Of a DNA stretch of 64,000 bases, positions 3,204 to 21,286 are shown piece after piece. Made by a program: the position numbers and the translations under genes. Each line of letters begins with the position of its first letter. Position 1 is the stretch's first letter. Source of the DNA: Stenotrophomonas sp. ESTM1D_MKCIP4_1 (GTDB lineage Bacteria; Pseudomonadota; Gammaproteobacteria; Xanthomonadales; Xanthomonadaceae); NCBI RefSeq assembly GCF_003086895.1, contig NZ_CP026004.1, positions 2,268,731-2,332,730 of the forward strand, in the 5' to 3' direction. The notes under the pieces are model-generated. The model was not told where the DNA came from. It was given only the letters and a program-made list of their open reading frames with translations, and made no database searches.

Positions 3204-5390
3204 ATGCCGCCGTTTTCCACACGATTCAAGCAATGGCCACGCCCCTGGCGGGCGCTGGCATGGGCTGTGGCCGGCCTGTACGCGCTGTATCTGCTGGCGG
3301 GCAATGTGTTCCTCAACACGCCGCTGTTCGACCGGGTGACCAACCACAAGCCGCACAAGTTCGTGATGCGCACCGGGCCAGCCATCACCCTGCTGCCGGG
3401 ACATGTCATCGCCTGGAACGTGCACATGCGTGGGCATGTCAACCATACCGTGTATGTGCTGCACGCCGAACGGGCCAGTGCGCGGCTGGCGCTGTGGCCG
3501 CTGTTCCGGCGGGAAGTGCGCGTGCCCCGCCTGCAGGCCACCGGCGTATCGGCCGAGGTGACCCGGGTCGAGGAGGCCGTGCCGCCGCCGCCGCGCGGCG
3601 ACCAGGGCTGGACGCTGCGCTTTGATGCCATCCACACCGATTCCATCCAGCACGCGCGCTTTGGCAAGCTGCTGATCATCGGCAAGGGCAGTGGCACGGT
3701 CGGGTTCCGCAAACAGCTGCGCGGAGGCCCGTCGGAACTGTATGACTCGCAGGTGTCCTTCCACAACGCCCTCGCCAGCTACGACGGCGTGCAGCTGCTG
3801 GATGCGTTGAACGTGGACGCGCGCTTCGGCTACCCCTGGCACTACCGCGACCAGGCCCCCGGTATCGCCAAGTTCGAGATCATCCACGGTGCATTGAAGG
3901 TCGATGCGCGCAGCCATGGCCTCCGCGTGGATACCGATGCGCGCACGCTGGCCGTATCCAGCTCACCCAGCACCGGGCAGCTGCAGGCCGACGTGACCCT
4001 CGCGGGCGGCACCCTGCAGCCCGGCAGCCGGGTGATCTGGCGCGTGCCGCTGCAGGCCGGCGCAGGCGCGCCCGATCGCGGCACGCTGGCCCTGCAGATG
4101 GACGCCGCCCGCGACATCCGCCTGCAGGCACGCCTGCCGCCGCGCGAAGGTACCGGCGCCGCGCTGGATGCCGACCTGCACATCGCGGGGCGGAAGATCC
4201 CCTTCCGCGAACCGGGCCAGCTGATCGAGCGCACCTCCGGCCGGGTGCAGGGCGAGTGGACATTCACCTCGCTCGACTGGGTACCTGCCCTGTTCCTGCG
4301 TGAGCCCTGGCTGCAGCTGGACGGCGGCGGCACGGTGCGCGCCGATCTGCAGCTGAAACAGGGTGAGCTTGCGGTGGGCAGCACCGTGGACATTCCCGAA
4401 GCCGCGGCCACCGCCGAGGTGGCGGGCGTGCGCATGACCGGTACGGCCAGCGCACACGGCGAACTGAAGCCCGGCACCCCCACCCGCGCCACGCTGGATG
4501 TACGGGTACCGCGCTTCAACGCCCGCGCCGGGGGGGCGAAGGGAGACACCCTGTTCGATGGCCGCGATCTGTCGTTGCAGCTCAGTGGTGACGGTCGCCT
4601 GCGCGAGTTCCGCAGGGACATGCGCGCGCGCCTGCGTTTCAACAACGCCATCATCCCCGACCTGACGGCCTACAACCGTTACCTGGGCAAGGAACAGGTG
4701 CGCCTGCTGGGCGGCACCGGCACCTTGACCGGTGATGTGGCCCTGGATACCGATGGCCGGGTGGGACATGGCACGGCATCGTTGCGCGGCAATGGCGCCC
4801 GCATGCGCGTGGCCGGGCTGGACCTGTTCGGCAATGCGGAAGTGGATGCCACCCTGCGCCGTGGCGATTTCAAGCAGCGCTATTTCGACCTGTCCGGCAC
4901 ATCGGTGCGGCTGCGCGATGTGCAGGTGGGCCAGCAGGACCGCAAGGCGCCCTGGCAGGGGCGCGTGCTGTTCAAGCAGGGGCGCATCGACGCGCAGGCC
5001 CCGTTCCGGGTGGATGCCAGTGCCGACCTCACGATGAGCGATGCCGGGCCGCTGCTGGGCGTGTTCGCCGAGCGCGGCGACTACCCGCGCTGGGTGCTGT
5101 CGTTGCTGGATGCCGGACAGGTGAATGCCTCCACCCGGCTGCGTTGGCAGGCGGGGCACCTCACGCTGGATGGCCTGCAGGCCGAGAACGAGCGCTTGTC
5201 CCTGCGGGCGCGGCTCGACCTGGTTGACCAGAACAAGCGTGGCGACCTCTATCTGCGCTGGGGCCTGCTCGGCGCCGGCATTGAACTGGATGGCAAGCAA
5301 CGCCAATGGCATCTGGCCGGGGCGCGTGAATGGTTTGATGGACGACCCGCCCTGCTCCCTGCGGACGGCCAGCCCGGAGCGGCGGACTGA
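3204..5390 (+). CDS. AsmA-like membrane-anchored protein
   Basis: A 728-residue protein with an N-terminal membrane segment (about 16-35, alanine/leucine rich) and a long periplasmic region. This region is made of repeated beta-strand stretches of the form 'LDVRVPRF', 'GTLTGDVALDTDGRVGHG' and 'VDASADLTM', which resemble the AsmA/DUF748/TamB group of bridge-like envelope proteins. Family members are linked to outer-membrane lipid transport and assembly. I recognise the architecture, not a named orthologue. It is monocistronic by spacing; tspO follows after 77 bases with its own promoter. Confidence 0.7.
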   Translation: MPPFSTRFKQWPRPWRALAWAVAGLYALYLLAGNVFLNTPLFDRVTNHKPHKFVMRTGPAITLLPGHVIAWNVHMRGHVNHTVYVLHAERASARLALWPLFRREVRVPRLQATGVSAEVTRVEEAVPPPPRGDQGWTLRFDAIHTDSIQHARFGKLLIIGKGSGTVGFRKQLRGGPSELYDSQVSFHNALASYDGVQLLDALNVDARFGYPWHYRDQAPGIAKFEIIHGALKVDARSHGLRVDTDARTLAVSSSPSTGQLQADVTLAGGTLQPGSRVIWRVPLQAGAGAPDRGTLALQMDAARDIRLQARLPPREGTGAALDADLHIAGRKIPFREPGQLIERTSGRVQGEWTFTSLDWVPALFLREPWLQLDGGGTVRADLQLKQGELAVGSTVDIPEAAATAEVAGVRMTGTASAHGELKPGTPTRATLDVRVPRFNARAGGAKGDTLFDGRDLSLQLSGDGRLREFRRDMRARLRFNNAIIPDLTAYNRYLGKEQVRLLGGTGTLTGDVALDTDGRVGHGTASLRGNGARMRVAGLDLFGNAEVDATLRRGDFKQRYFDLSGTSVRLRDVQVGQQDRKAPWQGRVLFKQGRIDAQAPFRVDASADLTMSDAGPLLGVFAERGDYPRWVLSLLDAGQVNASTRLRWQAGHLTLDGLQAENERLSLRARLDLVDQNKRGDLYLRWGLLGAGIELDGKQRQWHLAGAREWFDGRPALLPADGQPGAAD

Positions 5391-5403
5391 CAGGCAGCGG
5401 CGT

Positions 5404-5430
5404 TGCATCCAATTGCCAACCGCAGGCGTA
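5404..5430 (+). promoter_or_regulatory. Predicted RpoE (ECF11-type) promoter of tspO
   Basis: TGCATCC (5404-5410), 15 bases, GCGTA (5426-5430). The same two boxes with identical 15-base spacing occur at three other places in the window, one of them in front of rpoE itself. The expected transcript would start near 5437, about 30 bases before the tspO ATG. The boxes resemble -35 and -10 elements of the RpoE/ChrR sigma group as I remember them. Confidence 0.75.
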
Positions 5431-5467
5431 TACGCACGGCATTGATACACGTTGGAGAAGGACAGAG

Positions 5468-5953
5468 ATGAATCAGAGACGACAACTGTTCGGCCTGGTG
5501 GGCTGGCTGCTGCTGACCCTGGCCGCCGCGGCGCTCGGCGCCCGCGCCTCCATCACGGCTGCGGCGTTCTATGGCCAGTTGACCCAGCCAGGCTGGGCGC
5601 CACCGGCCAGTGTGTTCGGCCCGGTGTGGACACTCTTGTATGTCTTGATGGCGATCAGCGCATGGCTGGTCTGGCGCCAAGGCGGATGGAGGGCCAATCG
5701 TGCGGCCCTTGGCCTCTTTGTCGCGCAACTGGCGGTCAACGTGCTGTGGAGCTGGCTGTTCTTCTCCTGGAAACTGGGCGCGGCCGCCTTCGCCGATATC
5801 GTGGTGCTGCTTGCGTTGATCGTCGCCACGATGCTTGCCTTTGCGCGACGCCGCCCACTGGCAGCGTGGCTGCTGCTTCCCTATCTGGCCTGGGTCAGCT
5901 TCGCTTCGGCGCTGTGCTACACCGTCTGGAAGCTCAATCCTGCAGTGCTGTAG
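5468..5953 (+). CDS. tspO: TspO/MBR family tryptophan-rich sensory protein
   Basis: A 161-residue five-helix membrane protein. It has the family signature after helix 1 (QPGWAPPASVFGPVWTLLY) and the tryptophan-rich helix VLWSWLFFSWK. TspO proteins bind porphyrins and take part in tetrapyrrole and light or oxidative-stress responses; in Rhodobacter TspO modulates photosynthesis gene expression. A GGAG ribosome site lies at 5453-5456, 11 bases before the ATG. A promoter of the RpoE-ChrR type lies just upstream, which fits a role against photosensitised singlet oxygen. Its 3' end nearly touches that of the convergent small gene at 5960. Confidence 0.95.
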   Translation: MNQRRQLFGLVGWLLLTLAAAALGARASITAAAFYGQLTQPGWAPPASVFGPVWTLLYVLMAISAWLVWRQGGWRANRAALGLFVAQLAVNVLWSWLFFSWKLGAAAFADIVVLLALIVATMLAFARRRPLAAWLLLPYLAWVSFASALCYTVWKLNPAVL

Positions 5954-5959
5954 GCGCCG

Positions 5960-6214
5960 TCAGGCCACGATCGCGGCGGTGGATCGCCACTGCCGCAGTG
6001 CGGCCCCGGTGAACGTCTGCTGGCCACAATTCGATGGGCATCGCAGCACGCGGGCGTTGGCCGTACTGATCAGTCCCGCCCCTTCTTCGGCCCGGAACAC
6101 CGTCTCGCACGTCATGCAGCGCGCTACCAGAGCATACAGATGCACGATGCGCCCGCTGCAGGGATCCTGCAGTGCATCGATATCCAGCAGCTCGAAGCGG
6201 CTGCTGTCCGGCAT
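5960..6214 (-). CDS. Small zinc-ribbon-like protein, paralogue of the one at 31923
   Basis: An 84-residue protein with two cysteine pairs, CMTC in the middle and CPSNC near the end, a probable structural zinc site. It aligns along its length with the protein at 31923-32216: shared start MP-S/T-RF, a 'LD-DA--DP' block, a C-x2-C pair, 'GA', then 'LxC' and a second cysteine motif. That paralogy is the main evidence that this frame is real. The start at 6214 was chosen because the paralogue starts at the same place; the frame is open to 6325 but nothing matches there. Function unknown. Confidence 0.65.
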   Translation of the reverse strand: MPDSSRFELLDIDALQDPCSGRIVHLYALVARCMTCETVFRAEEGAGLISTANARVLRCPSNCGQQTFTGAALRQWRSTAAIVA

Positions 6215-6538
6215 CGCGCGGCGGGGGAAAGACAGGGGTACGAACGTCTGCAGGTCCACGTGGCATCGCCGGAGGGGAGGGTCACTGCAAGGTAAGGGGT
6301 GCGCCGTGCAGTACGTGTGCAGCACCGATGCACTGCCTGCGAAGGCGGCGGCGCATCCCGCCTGGCGTTACCTGAATTGTTCAGCACGCCAACGCAGCGA
6401 CGGCTGCATGAACAGAGGTAGGCGAAATCATGTTTTTACTTCACCATGTCGCCATGGCATTTTCTCCCGACACAGCGCTGCGTCGTGGCACGCAGTCCTG
6501 CGCTGCCAACTCTTCCCGCACTCCGAGCATCCCTGCTG
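6215..6538. other. Intergenic region, no gene seen
   Basis: 324 bases between the divergent zinc-ribbon gene and bphP. The right half is less GC-rich (around 6370-6470). I see no RpoE-type motif, no Zur-like palindrome and no credible small gene; it presumably holds both promoters. Confidence 0.5.
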
Positions 6539-8776
6539 ATGTCATCCACTGAACGCGCGCAGGACGCGGCGCTGCATCTGTGCGCGCAGGAGCCCATCCA
6601 CACGCCGGGCGCCATCCAGCCTTGCGGCGTGCTGCTGGTCATTGATGCGGAGTCACTGAAGGTGCTTGAGCGCGCCGTGAGCGATCCGGCACTGCTCGAA
6701 CGCTTCGGTGATCCTCTCGGCCACCCCTTGGATGCGGTGCTGGGCGGCGTTCTGGCGGGCTTCGTCGAGCGGATCGGCCACGTGGCCATGGACAGCTCCG
6801 CGCATGTCGGCTCCACCGATGTGCCGGGCCATGGGCTGCATCAGATCCTGGCCCACCGTTCCGCGCAGGGGCTGCTGCTGGAACTGGAATCCCCGGTGCC
6901 CGGCCAGCCGACCTCGCTGGAAGCCTTGTACCCGGCCATCCGCGAACTGATGGCAGCCATCGAATCGGCGGGCACGGTCGAAGCACTCTGCCAGATCGCT
7001 GCCGAGCACATGCGCGCCATGACCGGCTTCGACCGGACGCTGGTCTACCAGTTCGACAGCGGCTGGAACGGCATCGTCCTCGCCGAGGATGGCAATGGCG
7101 TGCTGCCGTCCTATCTGGACCTGCGCTTCCCTGAGTCGGATATCCCGGCGCAGGCGCGCGAGCTCTATCGCCGCAACCGCGTGCGCCTCATTGCCGATGC
7201 CCGGTATACGCCCGTGCCGCTGGTGCGCGACCCGGCGCATGCGCAGGCAGCGCCTACCGATCTCAGCCTGTCGGTGCTGCGCAGCGTCTCCCCGGTCCAC
7301 CTGCAGTACATGCGCAACATGGGCACCGGTTCGTCCATGTCGGTGTCGCTGATGCACGAAGGCCAGCTCTGGGGCCTGGTGTCCTGCCACAGCGCCGAAG
7401 CACGCCGCCTGCCGTACCCGGTACGCACCGCCTGCGAGTTCATGGGCCAGATCGTGTCGCTGCAGATTGCGCTCAAGCAGCGCGCACATGCCGTGGAAGA
7501 GCGCATCCAGCGCCGCTCGGTGCTGGTCAAGCTGCTGGGCCGCATGGCGGGCGACGAAGAATTCATGGCGGCACTTCGGCAGGACCCGGGCAGCCTGATG
7601 TCGCTGACCAATGCGCAGGGTGCTGCGATCGTGCACAAGGGCGACTGCGTGCGGGTGGGCCAGTGCCCGGCCCGCGAAGACGTGCTGGATATCGCCCACT
7701 GGCTGGCCGACGGGCATGCGGGGGATGAGGTGTACGCCACCGACCACCTTGCCAGTGAATGGGAACGGGGCGCCGCGCTGAGCGATGTGGCCAGCGGGGT
7801 GCTGGCCGTCTCCATCTCGCAGCTGCACGACAGTTTCCTGATGTGGTTCCGTCCTGAAGTCGTGCGGACCGTGCGCTGGGGCGGTGATCCGCGCAAGACC
7901 GTGGCGCCGGGCAGCGTGCTTTCCCCACGCCATTCGTTCGAGGCCTGGAAGGAAACCGTGCAGCAGCGCAGCCTGCCGTGGACCGATGCCGACCGCGATG
8001 CCGCGCACGAAATGCGCGCCGCCATTGTCGACATCGTGCTGCGCAAGGCCGAAGAAATGGCCGAACTCAACGAACAGCTCCTGCGCAGCAACAAGGAACT
8101 GGAAGCTTTCTCCTACTCGGTCAGCCATGACCTGCGCGCGCCGTTCCGCCATATCGTGGGCTATTCCGAACTGCTGGGCAGTTCGGCCGCCGAGCGCTTG
8201 AACGATACGGAGCGCCGCTTCCTGGACACCATCGTTGAATCGGCCAAGTCGGCCGGCACACTGGTGGATGATCTGCTGAGCTTCTCGCAGATGGGCCGCT
8301 CGACCCTGGGCCGGATGCGCGTGGACATGGCGGCACTGGTGACCGACGTTCGCCGGACGCTGGCATTCGACTACGCCGGTCGGGAGATCGACTGGAAGGT
8401 GGGCCCGCTGCCGGTAGTCGAGGCCGACCCGACCATGATGCGCCTGGTCTGGCAGAACCTGCTGTCCAATGCGGTGAAGTTCACCCGCGAACGGCCGCAC
8501 GCAGTCATCGAGGTGGGCTGCGAACGTGAAGAGACGGAGGACGTCTTCTTCGTGCGCGACAACGGCTGTGGTTTCGACATGCGCTACGTCGACAAGCTGT
8601 TCGGCGTGTTCCAGCGCCTGCACCACGTCGAGGAATTTGAAGGCACCGGCATCGGCCTGGCCAATGTGCGCCGCATCGTCGGCCGCCATGGCGGCCGTAC
8701 CTGGGCCGAAGGCGCGCTGGACAAGGGCGCCACCCTGCATTTCACCCTGCCCCATCAAGACGGAGAACACCCATGA
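6539..8776 (+). CDS. bphP: Bacteriophytochrome histidine kinase
   Basis: A 745-residue protein with the order PAS (1-110), GAF (about 135-320), PHY (about 325-505), HisKA (His530 in SVSHDLRAPF) and HATPase. The chromophore cysteine is present as C15 in CAQEPIHTPGAIQPCG, the site used for biliverdin in bacterial phytochromes. The GAF domain has the PESDIP motif and an SPVHLQYMRNMG segment, and the PHY tongue has PRHSF. The conserved His after SPVH and the His of SCHS are kept. It should be a red/far-red sensor that autophosphorylates and passes phosphate to the overlapping receiver gene. ATG 6539 was chosen because the PAS domain begins there; an upstream in-frame ATG at 6446 adds unrelated sequence. 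No heme oxygenase gene is nearby to supply biliverdin. Confidence 0.95.
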   Translation: MSSTERAQDAALHLCAQEPIHTPGAIQPCGVLLVIDAESLKVLERAVSDPALLERFGDPLGHPLDAVLGGVLAGFVERIGHVAMDSSAHVGSTDVPGHGLHQILAHRSAQGLLLELESPVPGQPTSLEALYPAIRELMAAIESAGTVEALCQIAAEHMRAMTGFDRTLVYQFDSGWNGIVLAEDGNGVLPSYLDLRFPESDIPAQARELYRRNRVRLIADARYTPVPLVRDPAHAQAAPTDLSLSVLRSVSPVHLQYMRNMGTGSSMSVSLMHEGQLWGLVSCHSAEARRLPYPVRTACEFMGQIVSLQIALKQRAHAVEERIQRRSVLVKLLGRMAGDEEFMAALRQDPGSLMSLTNAQGAAIVHKGDCVRVGQCPAREDVLDIAHWLADGHAGDEVYATDHLASEWERGAALSDVASGVLAVSISQLHDSFLMWFRPEVVRTVRWGGDPRKTVAPGSVLSPRHSFEAWKETVQQRSLPWTDADRDAAHEMRAAIVDIVLRKAEEMAELNEQLLRSNKELEAFSYSVSHDLRAPFRHIVGYSELLGSSAAERLNDTERRFLDTIVESAKSAGTLVDDLLSFSQMGRSTLGRMRVDMAALVTDVRRTLAFDYAGREIDWKVGPLPVVEADPTMMRLVWQNLLSNAVKFTRERPHAVIEVGCEREETEDVFFVRDNGCGFDMRYVDKLFGVFQRLHHVEEFEGTGIGLANVRRIVGRHGGRTWAEGALDKGATLHFTLPHQDGEHP

Positions 8777-9240
8777 GGGATCTGCGGCCCATCCTTCTGG
8801 TTGAAGACAGCCCCAAGGATGCCGAACTGACCATGGCAGCACTGGCCCGCTGCCAGCTGCTCAACGATGTCGTGCACGTGCGTGATGGTGCCGAAGCGCT
8901 GGATTACCTGCGCTGCGAGGGCGCCTACGCTGGCGCGCAGCATGGCGGTCCGGTGGTGGTGCTGCTCGACCTGAAACTGCCCAAGGTCAACGGCCTGGAA
9001 GTGCTGGAACAGGTCCGCGGCGATGCGGAACTGAGCAGTACGCCGGTTGTCATGCTCACGTCTTCCCGCGAGGAGCCCGACCTGGTGCGCGCCTACCAGC
9101 TGGGCGTCAATGCCTTCGTGGTCAAGCCGGTGGATTTCAAGGAATTCTTCGATGCCATCCAGGGCCTCGGCATGTTCTGGGGCATCACCAACCAGCCGCC
9201 GCCCCACCGCAGCACTGCCAAGGGTCCACGCGATGCGTGA
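8773..9240 (+). CDS. Rcp1-like single-domain response regulator
   Basis: 155 residues, a lone receiver domain of the cyanobacterial-phytochrome partner type. Acidic pocket ED near residues 11-12, phospho-acceptor Asp66 in LLDLKLPKVNG, and switch Lys118 in FVVKPVDF. There is no output domain. Its ATG overlaps the bphP stop (ATGA), so it is the expected phosphate acceptor of the phytochrome kinase. Its 3' end overlaps the next kinase gene by 8 bases. Confidence 0.95.
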   Translation: MRDLRPILLVEDSPKDAELTMAALARCQLLNDVVHVRDGAEALDYLRCEGAYAGAQHGGPVVVLLDLKLPKVNGLEVLEQVRGDAELSSTPVVMLTSSREEPDLVRAYQLGVNAFVVKPVDFKEFFDAIQGLGMFWGITNQPPPHRSTAKGPRDA

Positions 9241-11638
9241 CGCAGCACTGTCCGCGCCCCGCCTGCGCATCCTCATGCTGGAGGACAGTGCGCTGGACGC
9301 GGAACTGATCACGTCGCAGCTGCAGCGGGCCGGGCTCGATTTCCAGGTCGAGCGCCTGTGGACCCGCCAGAAGTTCATCGATGCCATCGACACTGGCGCC
9401 TTCGACGTCATCCTGGCCGACCACGTCCTGCCCGGTTTCGACGGCGATGCCGCGCTTGAACTCGCGCGCGAGCGCGCACCACAGATTCCTTTCATCTTCG
9501 TCTCGGGCACGCTGACCGAAGAGCTGGCCGTGCAGGCACTCACCCGTGGCGCGCGCGACTATGTAGTGAAGCAGCGCCTGCAGCGGCTGCCCGATGCCAT
9601 CCGCCGGGCGCGCCAGGAAGCCAGCGAGCGCAACCAGCTTGCCCAGGCCGAGGCGGCGTTGGAACAAAGCCAGGCGCAGCTGCAGCAGATCACCGATGCC
9701 GTGCCGGCACTGATTTCCCACCTGGATACCGACCACCGCTACCGCTTTGCCAACAAGGCCTTCCTCGACTGGCACGGCGCCGATCTGCACGGCATCCTAG
9801 GGCGTACTGCGGCGGAGGTTGGCGGTACCGACGCCTTCGCCGATGCCCTGCCCCACCTGCAGCACGTGCTTGCAGGCGAGCGGGTGCGGTTCGAGGTCAC
9901 CCTGGCACACCGCAGTGGCGAGTCACGTTTCGTGCAGATGGACTGCGTGCCCGAACGCGCTGCCGATGGCCGCGTGACCGGCTACACCTGCCTCGGCAGC
10001 GACGTGTCCACGCTCAAGCGTGCCGAACTGGCGCTGCGCGAGGACAACGAATCACTGGAACGCCAGGTGCAGGCGCGTACGGCCGAACTGCAGGCCAGCA
10101 AGCGGCGCCTGCAGGCCATCTTCGAGTCCAGTTTCCAGCACCAGGTGCTGCTGGAAACTACGGGCGCCATCGTCGATGCCAACGTCGCCTCGCTCGCAGC
10201 GGTCCTGGCCGAGAAGAGCGACGTGGTGGGCTACGCGTTCTGTGGCTCGCCCTGGTTCGCCGGCACGCCGGAACTCGCGCCCGAGGTCCAGCGCGCCGTG
10301 GCCGATGCCGCAGAGGGCAACACCAGCCTGCACGCCATGGAACTGGAGCTGCCCACCGGGCGCCGCAGCTTCGATTTTTCCTTCCGCCCGCTGCAGGGTG
10401 CGGACGGCACGGTGACCGCCGTGGTCTCCGAAGCCGTGGAAACCACCGCGCGCATCCACGCCGAGCACGCTCTGCGGCAAGCACAGAAGATCGAGGCGGT
10501 CGGCCAGCTGACCGGTGGTATCGCCCACGATTTCAACAACATCCTCACGGTGATTGCCGGCAACGTCGAACACGCGCTGCTGATGAGCCAGCGTGACAGC
10601 CAGGGCGGCAACCTCACCGCGCGTGCGCTGGACAACGCGCTGAAGGGTGTCGGCCGCGCGGCCAGCCTCACCCAGCGCCTGCTCGCATTCGCCCGCAAGC
10701 AGCCGCTGCACAGCCAGGCGGTCGATCTCAACGATGCCCTGCTGGGCATGCAGGACATGCTGCAGCGCGCATTGGGCGAACTGGTGCAGCTGGACATCCG
10801 TACCGCCGACGGTATCTGGTGCGTGGAACTGGACCTCAGCCAGCTGGAAGCTTCGGTGCTGAACCTGGCGGTCAACGCACGCGACGCCATGCCCGGCGGT
10901 GGCCGCCTGGTGGTGGAGATCGACAACAGCCATCTGGACCACGACTACGCCGCGCTGTTCCCCGATGCGACGCCGGGCGAATACGTGATGCTGCGTGTGC
11001 GCGACAACGGCCATGGCATGTCGCCCGACACCCTGGCCAAGGTCTTTGAACCGTTCTTCACCACCAAGCAGGTGGGCCGCGGCACCGGCCTCGGCCTGTC
11101 GATGGTGCACGGCTTCGTCAAGCAGTCCGGCGGGCACGTGCTGATCGATTCAGTGGAAGGCGACGGTACCCGCATCACGATGATGTTCCCGCGCTCTGCC
11201 CTGCCGCTGCCCAGCGAGACGACGGCACCGGCGGGCGGGTTCGCCAGCTACGAACCGCGCGAGGAAACGATCCTGGTTGCGGAAGACAATGACGATGTGC
11301 GCGCCTATACCGTTGAAGCACTGCGCCAGCTGGGCTACCGGGTGCTGGAAGCACACGATGGGCCCTCCGCGCTGCGCCTGCTGGAACGGCCTGACGCACG
11401 CGTCGACCTTCTGTTTTCCGATATCGTGATGCCGGGCATGTCCGGCTGGGAACTGGGCCGCGAAGTCCGCGAACGTTGGCCGCACGTGGCCGTGCTGTTC
11501 ACTTCCGGCTACCCGCGCGACCACGACGCGGCCGGCGCCAAGGGCCGCCCCGCGCCGCTGCTGTCCAAGCCCTTTACCCGCAGCGATCTGGCGGAGTCAG
11601 TGGTCAGCGCACTGAAGGATCACGCGCCAGCCGGTTGA
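9233..11638 (+). CDS. Hybrid histidine kinase: REC-PAS-PAS-HisKA-HATPase-REC
   Basis: An 801-residue soluble protein. It opens with a receiver domain (LEDSALDAEL; acceptor Asp in LADHVLP; Lys in YVVKQRL). Two PAS-like regions with coiled-coil linkers follow, then HisKA with His432 in GGIAHDFNNIL, an HATPase with NLAVNARDAM and GRGTGLGL, and a C-terminal receiver (FSDIVMPGMSG). The start at 9233 gives a receiver of normal length and overlaps the previous gene by 8 bases. The N-terminal receiver suggests it takes phosphate from the phytochrome branch or from the Rcp1-like protein. Its 3' end overlaps the convergent gene at 11604 by 35 bases. Confidence 0.93.
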   Translation: MRDAALSAPRLRILMLEDSALDAELITSQLQRAGLDFQVERLWTRQKFIDAIDTGAFDVILADHVLPGFDGDAALELARERAPQIPFIFVSGTLTEELAVQALTRGARDYVVKQRLQRLPDAIRRARQEASERNQLAQAEAALEQSQAQLQQITDAVPALISHLDTDHRYRFANKAFLDWHGADLHGILGRTAAEVGGTDAFADALPHLQHVLAGERVRFEVTLAHRSGESRFVQMDCVPERAADGRVTGYTCLGSDVSTLKRAELALREDNESLERQVQARTAELQASKRRLQAIFESSFQHQVLLETTGAIVDANVASLAAVLAEKSDVVGYAFCGSPWFAGTPELAPEVQRAVADAAEGNTSLHAMELELPTGRRSFDFSFRPLQGADGTVTAVVSEAVETTARIHAEHALRQAQKIEAVGQLTGGIAHDFNNILTVIAGNVEHALLMSQRDSQGGNLTARALDNALKGVGRAASLTQRLLAFARKQPLHSQAVDLNDALLGMQDMLQRALGELVQLDIRTADGIWCVELDLSQLEASVLNLAVNARDAMPGGGRLVVEIDNSHLDHDYAALFPDATPGEYVMLRVRDNGHGMSPDTLAKVFEPFFTTKQVGRGTGLGLSMVHGFVKQSGGHVLIDSVEGDGTRITMMFPRSALPLPSETTAPAGGFASYEPREETILVAEDNDDVRAYTVEALRQLGYRVLEAHDGPSALRLLERPDARVDLLFSDIVMPGMSGWELGREVRERWPHVAVLFTSGYPRDHDAAGAKGRPAPLLSKPFTRSDLAESVVSALKDHAPAG

Positions 11639-12290
11639 TCTGCGCGCACTCGACCACAGCGGGCGGTGCCGGCATCAGGGCCAGGGCGATCATGGCCTGG
11701 CCAATGGCGCGGTTGCTGGTGGCCAACGCCGGCAGCAGCCCTTCGGCCACGGCCATCAACGGTCGGGCCACGCAATAGAACGGTTTGAGCAGCGCGTGGC
11801 GCGTGCCGGTGCCGGATACCGGACGAACGCCGGCCGGACGCAGCATCACCGCGCGCACCGGCAGCTGCGCCAACGCCTGCTCGGTCTCACCCTTCACCCG
11901 CAATGGCATCAGGCCGCTGCGCGGATTGGCGTGTGCGCCGGATATATAGAGGAAGGTGCCTGAGGGATTGGCCGCTGCCCAGGCCTCCGCCACGGCGCGG
12001 GTCACCTGCAGGGTCACCTGACGGTACTCGGCTTCGGGCGTCCCCACGGGCGGCGCGCCGGCGCAGTAGAAACAGGCATCCCATCCGGAAAGCGCCGGGC
12101 CCAGCGTGGCCGCCTGCAGGAAGTCAGGCAGGACAATCTCATCGACGTTGCCCGGCACGCTGCCCGGCTGCCGCACCAGCGCACCCACGCGGGCCACTGC
12201 GCCGGACTGCAGGCACGCCTGCAGCACACCCTGCCCGACCAGGCCGGTGCTGCCGACCACCAGCACCCGCAATGCCTTGCCGTTGTCCAT
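11604..12290 (-). CDS. NAD(P)-binding Rossmann protein (atypical SDR)
   Basis: A 228-residue protein opening with a Rossmann nucleotide motif, VLVVGSTGLVGQGVLQ. It has the SDR-like blocks 'YCAGAPP' and 'YISGAHANP' and a C-terminal segment resembling atypical SDRs of the NmrA/HTATIP2 kind. It is the third gene of the rpoE-chrR unit, 19 bases after chrR. The start at 12290 sits just before the Rossmann strand; an upstream frame lies within chrR. A redox role on a lipid or quinone is conceivable from context, but no substrate can be read from the sequence. Confidence 0.85.
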   Translation of the reverse strand: MDNGKALRVLVVGSTGLVGQGVLQACLQSGAVARVGALVRQPGSVPGNVDEIVLPDFLQAATLGPALSGWDACFYCAGAPPVGTPEAEYRQVTLQVTRAVAEAWAAANPSGTFLYISGAHANPRSGLMPLRVKGETEQALAQLPVRAVMLRPAGVRPVSGTGTRHALLKPFYCVARPLMAVAEGLLPALATSNRAIGQAMIALALMPAPPAVVECAQINRLARDPSVR

Positions 12291-12309
12291 GGGCCTTGCC
12301 TCCAGCGTT

Positions 12310-12993
12310 CTAGAGTTTGACGAAACGCTGGATCTTCCGCGCCAGCCAACCGCTGAACACCAGCGGGGCATCCAGCGCCGACACACAGATGCAGGGCACG
12401 CCCGGTGCAGTGACCGGCTGGTGTTCCACATCCTCGTCCAGATCGGCCACATCGCCCGGCGCGAACAGACCCAGCGCATCATTGTAGGCGCCTCGCAGGA
12501 TCTGGGTCAGTTCGCTGCGTCCATGGCTGTGCATCGGCAGGCACTTGCCCGGCGCGATCCGCAGCATGATCAGCGACGGCATGTCCGCCGCGCGGATGCA
12601 ATGCACGCCCGGCGCGATCCAGCGCCAGCGCAGCGCCGCCAACGAGGGACCAAAATACGGGTGCAGGGAGGCGGGAAGATGGTCCGCGCTCACTTCGGGG
12701 CGATCCACCGGCTGCGGTGCAGGCCGGGCCACGGCAACGGCGGCCACGGCCGGTTCGCTGCGGTCCAGCTCGGCCAGCATGGCGATACGCAGCGCCTCGC
12801 TGCGTGCCCCCACGGCCACGGGCTGGGTCTGTTCCATCAGCGCCGCACCGATGGCCTCGGCCTCACCCAGGCGCTGGCGGCACAGGGCGCATTGTTCAAG
12901 GTGGGTGCCTGCCACCACGCTCAGCGGCGCCGGCAATGCGCCTGCGGCATAACTCAGCAGGGTCGATTCATGCAGGTGGTGGTGCGGGTTCAT
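12310..12993 (-). CDS. chrR: ChrR-type zinc-binding anti-sigma factor with cupin domain
   Basis: A 227-residue protein with an N-terminal zinc anti-sigma domain and a C-terminal cupin. Zinc ligands are His6, His31, Cys35 and Cys38 (HLEQCALC), which match the positions I remember for Rhodobacter ChrR. The cupin keeps His155-x-His157-x3-Glu161 and His191, the spacing of the second metal site. In R. sphaeroides ChrR holds RpoE inactive and releases it on singlet oxygen. The gene overlaps the sigma gene by ATGA, normal for a sigma/anti-sigma pair. All ligands are intact, so the switch should be functional. Confidence 0.95.
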   Translation of the reverse strand: MNPHHHLHESTLLSYAAGALPAPLSVVAGTHLEQCALCRQRLGEAEAIGAALMEQTQPVAVGARSEALRIAMLAELDRSEPAVAAVAVARPAPQPVDRPEVSADHLPASLHPYFGPSLAALRWRWIAPGVHCIRAADMPSLIMLRIAPGKCLPMHSHGRSELTQILRGAYNDALGLFAPGDVADLDEDVEHQPVTAPGVPCICVSALDAPLVFSGWLARKIQRFVKL

Positions 12994-13613
12994 GGCGCGC
13001 CCCCCACCTTGGACTGCAGCAGGAGGAAGGCCCGGCGCAGGTGCGATTTCACCGTGCCCAGCGGCATTCCCAACGCCTCGGCGATCTCGCCGTGACTCTT
13101 TGCCTCGAAATAGGACATGCGCACCAGCCGCGCCTGCACGGCCGGCAGTTCATTGATGCGCTGGCGCAGGCGCGCTTGGTCGGCATACTGCTCGGCGCTG
13201 CTGTACGCGGGGGCATCGCTGCGCGCAGCCTGTTCCACGGCGGCCTGAACCTGCATCCAGCTGCGCTCATGGCGCACCCGGTCGATCTGCAGGTTGCGCG
13301 CGATGCGGTACAGCCAGGTGCTCAGTGCGCCCTGCGCCGCATCGTAGTCGGCCGCGCGCAGCCACAGGCGCAGCAGGCATTCCTGGGCAAGTTCCTCGGC
13401 CACCGCATCCGGCGCCCCCAGGCCGCGCAGGTAAACGCACAGGCGCGGCATGAAATGATCGTAGATGCGCATGAAACAGGTGCGGTCACGCAGGCGTGCC
13501 ACACCGTCCATGTCACCGGTCCAGTTCGTCGGCTCGTTGCTCGGCTGCTGGGAACTGGACACGATGCGCGCGGAGTCGAAGTCAAAGGGAGGGCTGGCGG
13601 CGTCAGGGTACAT
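12990..13613 (-). CDS. rpoE: ECF sigma factor RpoE (ChrR-linked group)
   Basis: A 207-residue ECF sigma factor. Region 2 runs from FMRIYDHFMPRL to STWLYRIARNLQIDRVRH, and region 4 contains SYFEAKSHGEIAEALGMP with the helix-turn-helix ending GTVKSHLRR. It is directly followed by chrR, so it belongs to the RpoE-ChrR group that answers singlet oxygen. I prefer the ATG at 13613 because a predicted promoter lies about 40 bases upstream; ATG 13511 would leave an untranslated leader of about 135 bases. A longer open frame beyond 13613 overlaps the divergent gene and is not credible. Autoregulation is predicted from the shared promoter motif. Confidence 0.93.
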   Translation of the reverse strand: MYPDAASPPFDFDSARIVSSSQQPSNEPTNWTGDMDGVARLRDRTCFMRIYDHFMPRLCVYLRGLGAPDAVAEELAQECLLRLWLRAADYDAAQGALSTWLYRIARNLQIDRVRHERSWMQVQAAVEQAARSDAPAYSSAEQYADQARLRQRINELPAVQARLVRMSYFEAKSHGEIAEALGMPLGTVKSHLRRAFLLLQSKVGGAP

Positions 13614-13653
13614 CCGGGCGGCGATCAGGCAGGTGAAGGGGGTCTGTGTGCTG

Positions 13654-13680
13654 TACGCAGGAGGAGCCCATTTGGATGCA
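13654..13680 (-). promoter_or_regulatory. Predicted RpoE autoregulatory promoter
   Basis: On the minus strand TGCATCC (13680-13674), 15 bases, GCGTA (13658-13654). It is identical in both boxes and spacing to the sites at 5404, 13704 and 14552, and points at rpoE with its -10 box 41 bases before the ATG. It lies back to back with the site at 13704. Confidence 0.8.
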
Positions 13681-13703
13681 GTGCCGGATGCAGCCCGCCA
13701 GCG

Positions 13704-13730
13704 TGCATCCAGACCGGCCTGTGGCGCGTA
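13704..13730 (+). promoter_or_regulatory. Predicted RpoE promoter of the 13761 gene
   Basis: TGCATCC (13704-13710), 15 bases, GCGTA (13726-13730). A start near 13737 would give a short leader before the ATG at 13761, with AGGA at 13752-13755 as a ribosome site. Confidence 0.78.
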
Positions 13731-13760
13731 TCTCCTGCAGGCCCACCCGCCAGGATCGCC

Positions 13761-14528
13761 ATGCACACCGCCGCGCTGCTGCTTTCCCTTTCCACCGTGG
13801 CCAGCACCACGCCGTTGCTGCGCAGCGAGGGCGTGGCCAGCCTGGCCGATGGCAGCCCGGCCTACCGCGAGGTGCACTGGCGGCGCGGCGCGCCCGAAGG
13901 GGCGCAGCACTGGGTGCAGTACCTGTGCCCGGACGGCCGCCCGTTCGCACGCAAGACACTGCCCGCCACCGGGCAGCCGCTGGCGCGCGGCTACCAGCTG
14001 CAGGATGCACGCAGTGGCCAGACCGTCCACGTGGCAGTGGCCGCCGGGCAGGTCAGCATTGACTGGAAGGAAGCCGCAGCGGACGCAGCGCGCCGTACCC
14101 GATTGCCACTTCCCGCCGATGCGGTGATCGACACGGGCTTCGACGCGGCGGTGCGGGCGCATTGGCCGGCCCTGATGCAGGGCAGCGAGGTCCGCCTGCC
14201 CTTTCTGGTGCCGGGCCGGCAGCGCTTCTACCCGGTCACGGTACGCCGCACGGCCGCACGCGACTGGCGGGGCATTCCGGCCCAGGTCATCGAGGTACGG
14301 CTGGCCACCTGGTACGGCGCCGTCGCGCCGCGGCTGTCGCTGGTCTATGCCGACGATGACCGCCGGCTGCTGGAATTCCGCGGCACCAGCAACCTGCGCG
14401 ATGCCCGCGGTGCGTATCCGGTCGTCGTCGTCCGTTTCGCAGCACCTGCAACCGCGCAGCCGATGGCGAAGTGGCAACAGGCATGGGCGCAGCCACTGGT
14501 CCCCCAATGCAGCGTGAGCGGCGGGTGA
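13761..14528 (+). CDS. Putative periplasmic protein of unknown function
   Basis: A 255-residue protein with a likely signal peptide (MHTAALLLSLSTVAS, then a small residue-rich cut region). The rest is soluble and looks like mixed beta structure. I see no catalytic motif and do not recognise a named family. It sits between two predicted RpoE promoters, directly after the divergent sigma factor gene, so it is probably an RpoE-controlled envelope protein. ATG 13761 was chosen because it starts the signal peptide and has AGGA in front; the open frame upstream overlaps rpoE. Confidence 0.8.
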   Translation: MHTAALLLSLSTVASTTPLLRSEGVASLADGSPAYREVHWRRGAPEGAQHWVQYLCPDGRPFARKTLPATGQPLARGYQLQDARSGQTVHVAVAAGQVSIDWKEAAADAARRTRLPLPADAVIDTGFDAAVRAHWPALMQGSEVRLPFLVPGRQRFYPVTVRRTAARDWRGIPAQVIEVRLATWYGAVAPRLSLVYADDDRRLLEFRGTSNLRDARGAYPVVVVRFAAPATAQPMAKWQQAWAQPLVPQCSVSGG

Positions 14529-14551
14529 AGCCGGATGGAATGCGACGTCGT

Positions 14552-14578
14552 TGCATCCAATCCACACGCTGTCGCGTA
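14552..14578 (+). promoter_or_regulatory. Predicted RpoE promoter of the lipid operon
   Basis: TGCATCC (14552-14558), 15 bases, GCGTA (14574-14578), 34 bases before the desaturase ATG. The -35 side is nearly the same as at tspO (GTTGCATCCAA in both). It could drive all eight genes to 21820, since no gap within them exceeds 13 bases apart from the start region. Confidence 0.8.
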
Positions 14579-14611
14579 GAGGTAGTCAGACACGCCTTCG
14601 AGAAGCCGCCC

Positions 14612-15571
14612 ATGTCCGCAGCTGCGCCCCTCCCACGCCGACGTGAGCGCCTGCTGCGTACCCTGCGTCGCTGGTTCGATACCGAAGCCGCTGCCGCGCA
14701 GAGCGATCCTGTCGAGCGCGGCCGTATCGACTGGCTGCGCGCCGTGCCCTTCGTGCTGCTGCACCTGGCCTGCCTGGGCGTGATCTGGGTAGGCGTATCC
14801 TGGACCGCCGTACTGGTGGCGCTGGCCCTGTATGCCGTACGCATGTTCGCCATCACCCGGTTCTACCACCGTTATTTTTCCCATCGCACGTTCCAGGCCT
14901 CACGGCCGGTGCAGTTCGTCTTCGCGGTGATCGGTGCCGCCAGCGTGCAGCGTGGCCCGCTGTGGTGGGCAGCCCATCATCGCCACCACCATCGCCACGC
15001 CGACCAGCCGCAGGATCCGCATTCGCCGAACGAAGGCGGGTTCTGGCGCAGCCACATGGGCTGGTTCCTCACCCGCGAAGCTTTCGCCACCGATCTGGCG
15101 CGCGTGCCCGATCTGGCCCGCTACCGCGAACTGCGCTGGCTGGACCGGTTCGATGTTGCCGTGCCCGTGCTGTTGGCCGCCGCCCTGTACGCCCTCGGCG
15201 CCGTGCTGGAACGCGTGGCGCCCGGCCTGCAGACCTCGGGCCCGCAGCTGCTGGTGTGGGGCTTCTTCATCTCCACCGTCGTGTTGTTCCATGCCACGGT
15301 CACCATAAATTCGCTGGCCCATCGCTTCGGCAGCCGCCGCTTCGACACCCGCGATGACAGCCGCAACAACCTGTGGCTGGCCCTGCTGACCTTCGGCGAA
15401 GGCTGGCACAACAACCATCATTTCTTTCCCGGCACGGTCCGGCAGGGCTTCCGCTGGTGGGAGGTGGACCTGACCTGGTACGGGCTGCGCCTGCTGGCCG
15501 CGATGGGGCTGGTGCACGGACTCAAGCCGATACCGGACTGGGTGCTGGCAAAAGCAAAGGCGAAGGACTGA
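14612..15571 (+). CDS. Membrane fatty-acid desaturase
   Basis: A 319-residue integral membrane protein of the acyl-CoA/acyl-lipid desaturase family. The three histidine clusters of the di-iron site are present: HRYFSH near residue 92, HHRHHHRHAD near 125 and HNNHH near 270. Family members introduce a double bond, often delta-9, into acyl chains. It is the first gene of the lipid operon and would make the unsaturated substrate that the downstream cyclopropane-fatty-acid-type methyltransferases act on. The start at 14612 follows the predicted promoter by 34 bases; the upstream open frame has no family similarity. Confidence 0.93.
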   Translation: MSAAAPLPRRRERLLRTLRRWFDTEAAAAQSDPVERGRIDWLRAVPFVLLHLACLGVIWVGVSWTAVLVALALYAVRMFAITRFYHRYFSHRTFQASRPVQFVFAVIGAASVQRGPLWWAAHHRHHHRHADQPQDPHSPNEGGFWRSHMGWFLTREAFATDLARVPDLARYRELRWLDRFDVAVPVLLAAALYALGAVLERVAPGLQTSGPQLLVWGFFISTVVLFHATVTINSLAHRFGSRRFDTRDDSRNNLWLALLTFGEGWHNNHHFFPGTVRQGFRWWEVDLTWYGLRLLAAMGLVHGLKPIPDWVLAKAKAKD

Positions 15572-15573
15572 GC

Positions 15574-16851
15574 ATGCGCATCGCGGTCATCGGTTCGGGC
15601 ATTGCGGGGCTGGCCAGCGCGTACTGGCTGGATGGCGAGCACGAAGTCACTCTGTATGAGGCCAACGATTATCTGGGCGGCCATACCCACACCCATCAGG
15701 TCGAGGTGGGAGGACGTCAGCTGGCCGTGGATACCGGCTTCATCGTGTTCAACCCGCAGCACTACCCGCTGCTCAGCGCGCTGTTCGACGAACTGGGCGT
15801 GGCCTCGCAACCGACCACGATGAGCTTCTCGATGCACAGCGACCACAGCGGCGTGGAGTACAACGCGACCTCGCTGGATGGGCTGTTCTGCCAGCGCCGC
15901 AACCTGCTGTCGCCGCGCTTCTGGGGCATGCTGGCCGACCTGCGGCGTTTCTACCGCGATGCCCCGCGGTTGCTGGCCGAGGCGGAAGGCCCGACACTGG
16001 GCCAGTACCTGCGGCAGCAGCGCTTCGGTGAGGCGTTCGTGGAGGAGCATCTGCTGCCGATGGCCTCGGCCCTGTGGTCGTCGCCGACCGCCACGGTGCT
16101 CGACTTCCCGGCACGCTACCTCGTGCAGTTCATGGCCAACCACCAGATGCTGCAGATGACCGGCCGCCCGCCCTGGCGCGTGGTCAAGGGCGGTTCGGCC
16201 CGGTACGTGGATGCGCTGCGCCGCCGCTGGCGCGTGCACGAACGGCTGGAGTGCCCCGTGCAGGCGGTCGAACGCATGCCATGGGGCGCGCGCGTGCACA
16301 GCGCAGCCGGCATCGAGGGCTTCGATGAGGTGATCCTGGCCTGCCACAGTGACCAGGCGCTGGCGCTGCTGGCCGATGCCGACCCGGTGGAACATGCCGT
16401 GCTGGGCGCCATCCGTTACCAGCCCAACGAGGCGGTGCTGCACACCGATGCCTCGCTGCTGCCGCGCAACCGCAAGGCCTGGGCCGCCTGGAATGCACAT
16501 GTGCCGGCGGACCCGGGCGCCGCCTGCACGGTGAGCTACTGCATGAACCTGCTGCAGGGCCTGCCCGGTGACACCCCGCTGGTGGTGACCCTCAACCGCA
16601 GCGATGCCATCGATCCGTCCAAGGTGCTGCGCCGCCTGCACTATGCCCATCCCGTGCACGACCATGCTGCCGTGCGTGCGCAGCGGCGCTGGGGCGAAAT
16701 CCAAGGGCATCGCCACACCTGGTTCGCCGGCGCCTACTGGGGCTGGGGCTTCCACGAAGATGGCATCGCCAGCGCTCGACGCATGGTCGACGCCCTGCGG
16801 GCCCGCACCGGCATCGCCTCACCCATGCGCCCCACCGAGATCGTGGCATGA
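15574..16851 (+). CDS. FAD-dependent amine-oxidase-like oxidoreductase
   Basis: A 425-residue flavoprotein with an N-terminal dinucleotide-binding motif (VIGSGIAGLASAYWL), the following acidic residue in YEANDYLGGHTHT, and a C-terminal 'GAYWGWGFHEDG' segment that usually contacts FAD. It is of the NAD(P)/FAD-dependent oxidoreductase type usually found beside DUF1365 and cyclopropane-fatty-acid synthase genes. It starts 2 bases after the desaturase stop. A desaturation or dehydrogenation step on a methylated acyl chain is a reasonable inference from the operon; the substrate is not visible. Confidence 0.9.
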   Translation: MRIAVIGSGIAGLASAYWLDGEHEVTLYEANDYLGGHTHTHQVEVGGRQLAVDTGFIVFNPQHYPLLSALFDELGVASQPTTMSFSMHSDHSGVEYNATSLDGLFCQRRNLLSPRFWGMLADLRRFYRDAPRLLAEAEGPTLGQYLRQQRFGEAFVEEHLLPMASALWSSPTATVLDFPARYLVQFMANHQMLQMTGRPPWRVVKGGSARYVDALRRRWRVHERLECPVQAVERMPWGARVHSAAGIEGFDEVILACHSDQALALLADADPVEHAVLGAIRYQPNEAVLHTDASLLPRNRKAWAAWNAHVPADPGAACTVSYCMNLLQGLPGDTPLVVTLNRSDAIDPSKVLRRLHYAHPVHDHAAVRAQRRWGEIQGHRHTWFAGAYWGWGFHEDGIASARRMVDALRARTGIASPMRPTEIVA

Positions 16852-17615
16852 CGGCCAGCGCGCTCTATTTCGGCCATGTGCAGCACCGGCGGCACCATCC
16901 GCATGCGCACGCGTTCCGCTACCCGGTGGCGCAGCTGCTGCTCGACCTCGACGAACTGGACCAGGTGTTTGCCGGCCGCTGGCTGTGGTCGGTCAATCGC
17001 CGCAACCTGGCCGAGTTCCGCCGCAGCGATTACCTGGGCGCGCCCGAGGTACCGCTGGCCGACGCCGTACGCGACCATGCGGCCAGCGTACTCGGCCGAC
17101 GCCCGGCCGGCCCCGTCCGCCTGCTGACTCACCTGCGCTTTGGCGGCCACGTCTTCAATCCGGTCAGCTTCTACTACTGCTACCGCGAAGACGGCAGCAC
17201 GCTGGACTGCATCGTCGCCGACATCACCAACACCCCCTGGAAGGAACGGCATGCCTATGTGCTGCCGGTCGCGCAGGCACAGCACGGTGGCGGCAGCCTG
17301 CGCTGGCAGTTCGACAAATGCTTCCACGTGTCCCCCTTCATGCCGATGGACTGCCGCTACGACTGGCGCTTCAACGCCCCCGGTGATGCGCTGCGCGTGC
17401 ACATGGAGGTCTGGCGCGACGGCGTTCGCCAGTTCGATGCCACCCAGACCATGCAGCGCCGCCCGCTGGACGGCCGCGGCCTGGCCCGGGTGCTGCTGGC
17501 GTACCCCTTGATGACCGTGCAGGTGGTGGCGGCCATCCACTGGCAGGCCCTGCGCCTGTGGCTGAAGCGCAACCCCGTGCACGACCACCCTTCCCTTGCC
17601 GAGAAACCGCGATGA
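16848..17615 (+). CDS. DUF1365 family protein
   Basis: A 255-residue protein of the DUF1365 family, recognisable by YFGHVQHRRHHPHAHAFRYPV at the N-terminus, the 'LTHLRFGGHVFNPVSFYYCY' block and 'DKCFHVSPFMPMDCRYDWRF'. The family has no settled biochemical role but nearly always lies between a flavin oxidoreductase and a cyclopropane-fatty-acid synthase, as here. It overlaps both neighbours by ATGA, so the three proteins are probably made in fixed ratio. Confidence 0.93.
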   Translation: MTASALYFGHVQHRRHHPHAHAFRYPVAQLLLDLDELDQVFAGRWLWSVNRRNLAEFRRSDYLGAPEVPLADAVRDHAASVLGRRPAGPVRLLTHLRFGGHVFNPVSFYYCYREDGSTLDCIVADITNTPWKERHAYVLPVAQAQHGGGSLRWQFDKCFHVSPFMPMDCRYDWRFNAPGDALRVHMEVWRDGVRQFDATQTMQRRPLDGRGLARVLLAYPLMTVQVVAAIHWQALRLWLKRNPVHDHPSLAEKPR

Positions 17616-18871: not shown

Positions 18872-18872
18872 C

Positions 18873-19418
18873 ATGGCGCGCACCTGGGGCAACCTGCTCG
18901 GCAACCAAGTGGTGTGGCTGTGCGCTGTGGCTGGTGCGGGGCGCGGCTGGCAATGGCCGGCCCTGCTGGCGGCGGCGCTGTACATCGCCAGCCAACTGCT
19001 GACCAGCCCGGTGCCCAGGGTCGACCTGCGACTGCTGCTGCTCGCCCTGGCCTGCGCCTGGCTGGTGGATGGTGTCGCGGCAGCCAGCGGCATCGTGCGC
19101 TATGCCGCCGCGCCGCTGGGGTGGGCACCGCCGCCGTGGATCATGGCCCTGTGGGCATCCTTCGCCATGACGCTGACGGCGTCGATGGCCTTCCTGCAAC
19201 GGCATCGCCTGCTGCCGGTCGCCTTCGGTCTGCTGCTGGCACCGCTGGCCTATCTGTCGGCGGCACGCGGCTTCCAGGCGGTGCACTTCACCGAACCCAT
19301 GTGGCAGGGCGTGCTGCTGCTGGGGCTGGGCTGGAGCATCGCCCTGCCCCTGCTGTGCACGCTGGCACGTCGGGGCGCACACACGCATGAGGGCACGCAC
19401 ATGAGGGCACGCACATGA
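18873..19418 (+). CDS. DUF2878 family membrane protein
   Basis: A 181-residue protein with about five hydrophobic segments and conserved tryptophans ('LVDGVAAASGI', 'APPPWIMALWASFAMTL'), of the DUF2878 family. It starts one base after the CFA synthase stop codon and overlaps the next gene by ATGA. No enzymatic motif is visible. The C-terminus has a short duplicated run (THEGTHMRART). Confidence 0.85.
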   Translation: MARTWGNLLGNQVVWLCAVAGAGRGWQWPALLAAALYIASQLLTSPVPRVDLRLLLLALACAWLVDGVAAASGIVRYAAAPLGWAPPPWIMALWASFAMTLTASMAFLQRHRLLPVAFGLLLAPLAYLSAARGFQAVHFTEPMWQGVLLLGLGWSIALPLLCTLARRGAHTHEGTHMRART

Positions 19419-21273: not shown

Positions 21274-21286
21274 AGGAGATACCACC

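Follow-up and report, generated by a model that had tools for sequence, protein, structure and literature searches.

The window considered here, a 64,000-nucleotide stretch of a Stenotrophomonas genome, contains the genes of a sigma/anti-sigma factor pair, rpoE (positions 12990-13613, minus strand) and chrR (12310-12993, minus strand), and a gene of the TspO/MBR family, tspO (5468-5953, plus strand), which encodes a protein of 161 amino acids. Four copies of the sequence TGCATCC-N15-GCGTA lie around these genes: at 5404-5430 (plus strand) upstream of tspO, at 13654-13680 (minus strand) upstream of the rpoE-chrR-chrA operon, where autoregulation is predicted, at 13704-13730 (plus strand) upstream of a gene starting at 13761 and the lipid operon behind it, and at 14552-14578 (plus strand), a second, internal position upstream of the fatty acid desaturase gene. 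They are interpreted, with good confidence, as the promoters of a stress regulon of the ECF11 type (RpoE-ChrR) in a Stenotrophomonas species, one direct target of which is tspO.

The four identical boxes had been picked out in a sequence-only reading of the window, and were found at these coordinates and on these strands with 0 mismatches. The sequence occurs exactly four times in the window, always at a promoter position, with 37 nt (tspO), 40 nt (rpoE), 30 nt (the gene at 13761) and 33 nt (desaturase) between the end of the -10 box and the start codon. The sites at 13654-13680 and 13704-13730 are divergent and stand back to back between rpoE and the gene at 13761. The spacers differ among the four sites, and identity is confined to the boxes. 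In dinucleotide shuffles of the window the expected count was 0.01, and four or more sites were reached in none of 100 shuffles, in agreement with the earlier argument that a chance origin of four perfect sites is unlikely. When up to two mismatches were allowed, 11 sites were found against 9.3 expected, with nothing notable besides the four exact ones. The window scan detected no box upstream of the bacteriophytochrome gene bphP or of the second Cfa gene, and a consensus scan for sigma-70 promoters across 5380-6600 found none.

The tspO product is covered over its whole length by PF03073 (TspO_MBR; 141.9 bits, cutoff 24) and has TspO relatives among its PDB matches; its score against the NCBIfam TspO equivalog NF047825 (T-richsensTspOAlph) was 93.4 bits, below the cutoff of 180. 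The gene is present in 41 of 91 genomes of the genus, that of the window included, and in 39 of these 41 it lies 1.1 to 7.6 kb from rpoE. The regions examined were the other 40 tspO regions, the rpoE region of genome G229, those of 11 genomes with an rpoE orthologue and no tspO, and 8 of 11 with a more distant rpoE. All 39 linked tspO genes are preceded by YGCATCC-N15-nCGTA ending 29-45 bp 5' of the start. Within 150 bp upstream, the box was found at 39/41 tspO genes, 59/59 rpoE genes, and all genes of the 13761 type (46/46) and desaturase genes (49/49) that were located, whereas mononucleotide-shuffled tspO upstream regions gave a site in 7 of 82,000. Both genus exceptions without a box are unlinked loci. 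In G259, tspO is present without an rpoE orthologue (33% identity for the best sigma match); in G229, tspO is on a different contig from rpoE and the three other boxes. The matching promoters and the retention of the tspO site across relatives indicate that tspO is very probably switched on directly by the stress system, as the sequence-only reading had predicted.

In all four sets of sites, 2.0 bits were reached throughout CGTA and at every -35 position except the first (T/C), which had 1.0-2.0 bits. The first spacer base had 1.7-2.0 bits, one more column 1.5 bits in two sets, and the others 0.2-1.3 bits; in the tspO set only two spacer columns (1.5 and 1.8 bits) lay outside the range of 0.2-1.3 bits. 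With rpoE orthologues taken at 72% identity or more, 40 genus genomes carried both tspO and rpoE, 1 tspO only, 11 rpoE only and 39 neither (Fisher p 1.6e-14). Addition of 11 genomes with a 57-62% identical rpoE weakened the association (40, 1, 22 and 28; Fisher p 1.0e-8), and both tests ignore phylogeny and physical linkage. Since the sequences are related by descent, the genus counts do not represent independent events. In the named species S. cyclobalanopsidis (locus L056), all four boxes and the gene order of the window recur. At one locus (L186, genome G267), tspO was matched in two pieces (residues 2-68 and 106-161) with the sigma box intact, probably owing to a recent frame break or gap.

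The sigma factor carries only the Pfam domains Sigma70_r2 and r4_2, and the best of its 12 PDB matches was Rhodobacter sphaeroides RpoE (2Q1Z, E 1.1e-24). ChrR, a zinc anti-sigma factor with a cupin domain, passes TIGR02451 (156 bits, cutoff 124.5), and residues 3-217 of its 227 align to the solved R. sphaeroides ChrR (2Z2S, E 1.9e-35). All eight metal ligands listed earlier for this protein (H6, H31, C35, C38; H155, H157, E161, H191) are present within the aligned region. Its score against NF051881, the NCBIfam equivalog for a cadmium-, peroxide- and UV-responsive ChrR, was 137.1 bits, below the cutoff of 300. Judged by sequence comparison, the two proteins are an ECF11 RpoE-ChrR pair. The third gene of the operon encodes a chrA-like NAD(P)-binding protein (11604-12290, minus strand; start uncertain, 12290 or 12356), a gene named chrA in Stenotrophomonas maltophilia (PMC11832516).

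The geometry ATCC-N16-CGTA, present in 4/4 window sites, is that of the published ECF11 consensus, and the box stands upstream of rpoE in 59/59 loci; both observations bear out the earlier assignment of the four sites as RpoE/ChrR (ECF11) promoters. Other factors of the extracytoplasmic function (ECF) type exist in this genome, in which the sigma factor had 12 matches at E 0.001 (rpoE itself included), and one of these might read the tspO box, or a different regulator might bind it, its likeness to the rpoE box being secondary. This is very unlikely in view of the box upstream of rpoE itself in every locus, the published ECF11 geometry, and the lack of a box in G259, where tspO occurs without an rpoE orthologue.

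In its -35 part the box departs from those described for this family. The RpoE box of R. sphaeroides begins TGATC. The published ECF11 box of Pseudomonas syringae is TGATCC-N16-CGTA (PMC5507510); that of Shewanella combines TGATCC with CGTA and is called similar to the R. sphaeroides box (PMC4336711). The window box is xGCATCC-N16-CGTA, in which the distance between ATCC and CGTA is as published and GC replaces TG (or TG stands one base apart from ATCC); its -35 hexamer is GCATCC, not the canonical TGATCC. This limits the claim of a canonical box, not the identity of the sigma factor. Among 50 loci compared, the rpoE autopromoters of family relatives had GCATCC, GAATCC or GGATCC, and three distant relatives had TGATCC. 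The three TGATCC autopromoters pair with the recognition helix GTVKSR.RLA, and at two more loci with that helix no box was found. In the other 44 boxed loci that R is replaced by H, S, T, N or Y,.RR follows, and the dinucleotide preceding ATCC is shifted. All 44 come from one family, and three of their boxes, at 163-186 bp from the start, may be chance matches. One further locus, with W at the helix position, had no box. A simple code from helix residue to -35 base was rejected, as TGCATCC pairs with H, S, T or Y. The association between recognition helix and -35 box may serve as a lead for a specificity change rather than as a proven code, and the shifted box provides a natural series in which changes in the promoter specificity of ECF sigma factors can be studied.

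The sequence-only reading had raised the possibility that the motif is frequent outside gene starts, and had suggested a genome scan for further targets. In the 4.48-Mb genome the exact motif TGCATCC-N14-16-GCGTA has only 7 sites, against 1 for the reversed-pattern control. The spacing is N15 in five of them, namely the four window sites and one inside a coding sequence, and N14 in two, one inside a coding sequence and one 53 bp 5' of an open reading frame (ORF). For GCATCC-N16-CGTA, 18 sites were found (control, 3): the four of the window, 11 inside coding sequences and 3 intergenic sites with no called same-strand gene downstream. The scan upheld the placement of the four sites before genes, but added no target, since no GCATCC-N16-CGTA site outside the cluster precedes a called same-strand gene. 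The regulon of this genome under this box would therefore consist of four promoters within 9.2 kb. Gene calls for the genome came from a simple codon-usage script whose threshold excluded even tspO, and other short or odd genes may likewise have been overlooked.

With N15 and up to one mismatch, 21 sites were found genome-wide (control, 7), 17 of them off the cluster (11 inside coding sequences and 6 intergenic). Candidate promoter positions off the cluster are three of these six intergenic loci (L013, L017 and L023) and the exact N14 site (L001). The latter (L001 1501-1526, G000:C1:692445) has a spacing 1 base shorter than that of the regulon sites, and the ORF 53 bp downstream encodes an exported-looking protein. 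At L013 (G000:C1:1247016), TGCATTC-N15-GCGTA lies about 160 bp 5' of what by eye is an ECF sigma/FecR-like gene pair, and could be chance. The bare pattern is unspecific: an exact N14-16 match occurs in 144/198 family genomes, and the sigma factor at E 1e-25 in only 31/198. The argument therefore rests on position and conservation. In five further genus genomes the wider pattern had 19-26 sites each; of 10 stretches read, 4 had the site inside a coding sequence, 1 facing an opposite-strand gene and 2 without a called gene nearby, and 3 carried one same ilv site. At the last (L347-L349; G179, G228, G240), AGCATCC-N16-CGTA with an identical spacer overlaps the end of an ilvM-like gene 83 bp 5' of a same-strand ilvA-like gene (names by eye). 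Its 26 bases recur in 4/5 of these genomes, and it is not among the sites of the window's own genome; either promoter function or a conserved overlap could account for it.

Photolyase had been put forward as a regulon member to look for; no match to a DPRP-type photolyase was found in the window's own genome (other photolyase families were not searched), and the family is present in 5/91 genus genomes. In the three close relatives considered (L250-L252; G256, G210, G262), a divergent perfect box pair with overlapping -35 elements lies between a DPRP photolyase gene and a Pfam-less gene (outer-membrane-like by eye). As a boxed photolyase exists in relatives and is absent here, the regulon appears to gain and lose outlying members.

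The gene at 13761-14528 (plus strand) has no Pfam or NCBIfam family and is the counterpart by position of smlt2375, called periplasmic in S. maltophilia (PMC11832516); the box precedes it in all 46 loci where the gene was found. It is followed by the fatty acid desaturase gene (14612-15571, plus strand; PF00487), with its own box in all 49 loci where it was found, and by genes for an FAD oxidoreductase, DUF1365, Cfa, DUF2878, DUF1295, a second Cfa and a lipocalin (15568-21820, plus strand), in the order of smlt2373-2367. Cyclopropane/furan fatty-acid genes thus stand under the box, in a desaturase-led operon with the FAD oxidoreductase and two Cfa genes. According to RNA-seq data from S. maltophilia (PMC11832516), the rpoE-chrR-chrA operon and the nine-gene lipid cluster are sigma-dependent: in a chrR mutant rpoEc was 45-fold and smlt2375-2367 were 165- to 697-fold up, which reverted in the double mutant, and the authors placed a sigma box 5' of rpoEc and smlt2375. 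Three of the four window promoters therefore serve a published regulon. In the same data, transcripts per million (TPM) rise 2.8-fold from smlt2375 (744) to smlt2374 (2088), which fits an internal promoter upstream of the desaturase (14552). The second Cfa gene of S. maltophilia, smlt2368, shows a TPM about 6 times that of smlt2369, in wild type and chrR mutant alike (PMC11832516); the corresponding window gene (20200-21273) has no box. The regulon is thus mostly already known; direct control of tspO appears to be new, as far as the literature searched goes, and is well supported by the genome comparison.

Outside the genus, the family set of 198 genomes (40 with tspO) includes 34 tspO genomes, only 4 of which have an ECF11-type sigma factor at E 1e-25. 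At the 24 of these 34 loci examined, ATCC-N15-17-CGTA was not found within 250 bp upstream of tspO. In three of the four genomes with the sigma factor (G037, G108, G149), tspO lies on a different contig from rpoE or at a great distance from it. In G176, from another genus (L358, L359), tspO is split by an assembly end and runs off a contig that overlaps the end of the rpoE-chrR contig. Hence tspO and rpoE-chrR came together in at least one other genus, but Stenotrophomonas is the only one in which the promoter is seen. On the simplest reading, the genes became neighbours earlier or independently, and direct control arose within Stenotrophomonas. Among 39 named tspO loci from many phyla, a box just upstream and on the tspO strand was found only in L056 (S. 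cyclobalanopsidis). In L074, a TGATCC about 180 bp upstream of tspO has a spacer of 13 bases and was judged not canonical.

Some observations weigh against direct control of tspO by this regulon, or against the box as its full definition. Of the genus genomes, 11 with an rpoE orthologue and 11 more whose rpoE is 57-62% identical lack tspO, which is therefore an accessory target. The tspO of G176 is convergent with chrR, only 38 bp away, but the 420 bp upstream of it contain no box; proximity to rpoE-chrR is thus not enough to supply the promoter, although this locus has no bearing on those of Stenotrophomonas. In S. maltophilia, tspO has 0 occurrences in the text of PMC11832516 (Table S2, with 24 regulated genes, lay outside this check). 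Moreover, the yceA-cybB-yceB operon is sigma-dependent there (PMC11832516), yet none of the box sites read in the window's own genome precedes genes of this type, which implies that weaker boxes or indirect effects exist.

It might also be supposed that tspO came to stand beside rpoE by chance and that its box is conserved merely because the region is young. The distance between the two genes (1.1 to 7.6 kb in all 39 boxed loci), the relatedness of the genomes and the boxless tspO adjoining rpoE-chrR in G176 would be expected in that case. This explanation is highly improbable, however, as the 39 tspO sites have 35 distinct spacers, with near-invariant boxes and most of the spacer variable, and as TspO identity to the window protein drops to about 61% across linked loci while the box persists. 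Direct control of tspO is accordingly preferred.

Three genes follow tspO on the plus strand: a bacteriophytochrome histidine kinase gene (6539-8776; PAS_2, GAF, PHY, HisKA and HATPase domains, BphP matches in the PDB), which has no box of its own, a gene for a single-domain response regulator (8773-9240) and one for a hybrid PAS histidine kinase/response regulator (9233-11638). In 28/30 genus loci with rpoE and this trio, tspO lies upstream of the trio, in all 28 with a box at tspO, and GCATCC-N14-16-CGTA was found between tspO and bphP in 0/28. Eleven other loci carry tspO and its box without the trio, so tspO does not need it. In S. maltophilia the genes smlt2382-2380 (sensor kinase, response regulator, hybrid kinase) are sigma-dependent (PMC11832516), which read-through from tspO would explain. 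Tentatively, then, the ECF11 switch may drive tspO and, via read-through, the trio, so that a single oxidative signal would raise a porphyrin scavenger together with a sensor of red/far-red light. Counting against read-through is an 84-codon ORF in the window between tspO and bphP, convergent with tspO (5960-6214, minus strand); it encodes two Cys pairs, is about 60-82% identical in most linked loci and has no Pfam family. In P. syringae the bphO-bphP operon (PSPTO_1900-bphO-bphP) is a target of the ECF11 factor (PMC5507510). As this is a different operon, read-through, if true, would make the link between photooxidative stress and light sensing a convergent one.

In the mechanism proposed, ChrR would keep the sigma factor inactive until an oxidant inactivates ChrR, whereupon sigma-RNA polymerase would initiate at YGCATCC-N15-nCGTA at the four places within 9.2 kb. 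The sigma factor would transcribe its own operon, giving positive feedback, the gene at 13761, the desaturase-led lipid-remodelling operon via the second promoter as well, and tspO. Binding or turnover of porphyrins is a property of TspO family members. Extra TspO in the inner membrane may bind porphyrins and clear or export them, leaving less photosensitiser and redox-active tetrapyrrole, and porphyrin clearance is the most likely purpose of tspO in the regulon. In Bacillus cereus, loss of tspO is reported to lead to porphyrin build-up (PMC13185565, 2026).

As to the signal, the sequence-only reading had spoken of a singlet-oxygen regulon, a name that the published phenotypes leave unproven. 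Deletion of rpoEc, chrR and chrA, singly or combined, left Rose Bengal and tert-butyl hydroperoxide tolerance of S. maltophilia unchanged, and sigma activation raised tolerance to menadione (superoxide) through the lipid cluster (PMC11832516). On these results it is quite possible that a genuine regulon deals with superoxide, organic hydroperoxide or membrane damage instead of singlet oxygen, and that tspO belongs to it on redox or membrane grounds and not as a defence against photosensitisers. The S. maltophilia operon was not induced by menadione (PMC11832516), which disfavours superoxide as the signal. Against a signal other than singlet oxygen, related ECF11 systems respond to singlet oxygen in P. 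syringae (PMC5507510) and R. sphaeroides, and the lack of a phenotype in a survival test is no proof that induction by singlet oxygen is absent.

The role of bacterial TspO in non-photosynthetic cells is still debated. A conserved direct tspO promoter under an oxidant-released sigma factor, in a large non-phototroph genus, would allow a clear test of that role: does loss of tspO raise porphyrin levels or light sensitivity only while the sigma factor is active?

No direct ECF11 control of tspO was found in the literature searched, which did not cover supplements or the 2008 paper of Dufour, reportedly the original account of the regulon. The earlier remark that tspO is not a standard member thus holds for direct control as far as that literature goes. 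At the second tier a link is known: in R. sphaeroides, tspO has an RpoHII promoter (PMC8307010), and RpoHII in turn is controlled by RpoE (PMC4585239). The organism of PMC10949492 is described as having no RpoE-ChrR.

Among known systems, that of S. maltophilia is the closest in layout. Its lipid cluster, from the periplasmic protein and the desaturase to the lipocalin, has the gene order of window positions 13761-21820, and smlt2382-2380 correspond to 6539-11638 by position and domains; unlike the window, with its site at 14552, no internal desaturase box is mentioned in the sections of that paper considered (PMC11832516). The regulon of P. syringae PSPTO_1043/1042 has ATCC-N16-CGTA promoters like those of the window but a TGATCC box, and its targets include katG, a glyoxalase gene and phrB, with no mention of tspO in the main text (PMC5507510). 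In Rhodobacter capsulatus, tspO belongs to crtIB-tspO and is up by about 1.3 log2 under singlet oxygen/photooxidative stress, but this is a carotenoid operon in a phototroph, and the passages considered describe no ECF11 promoter (PMC7074977). The R. sphaeroides gene likewise lies in crtIB-tspO (PMC4344238). The RpoE-ChrR pair of R. sphaeroides provides the nearest solved relatives of the window sigma factor and ChrR (2Q1Z and 2Z2S), and fatty-acid genes are also reported as targets of its singlet-oxygen regulon; its tspO stands one tier below RpoE, through RpoHII, whereas tspO of the window has a predicted ECF11 box of its own.

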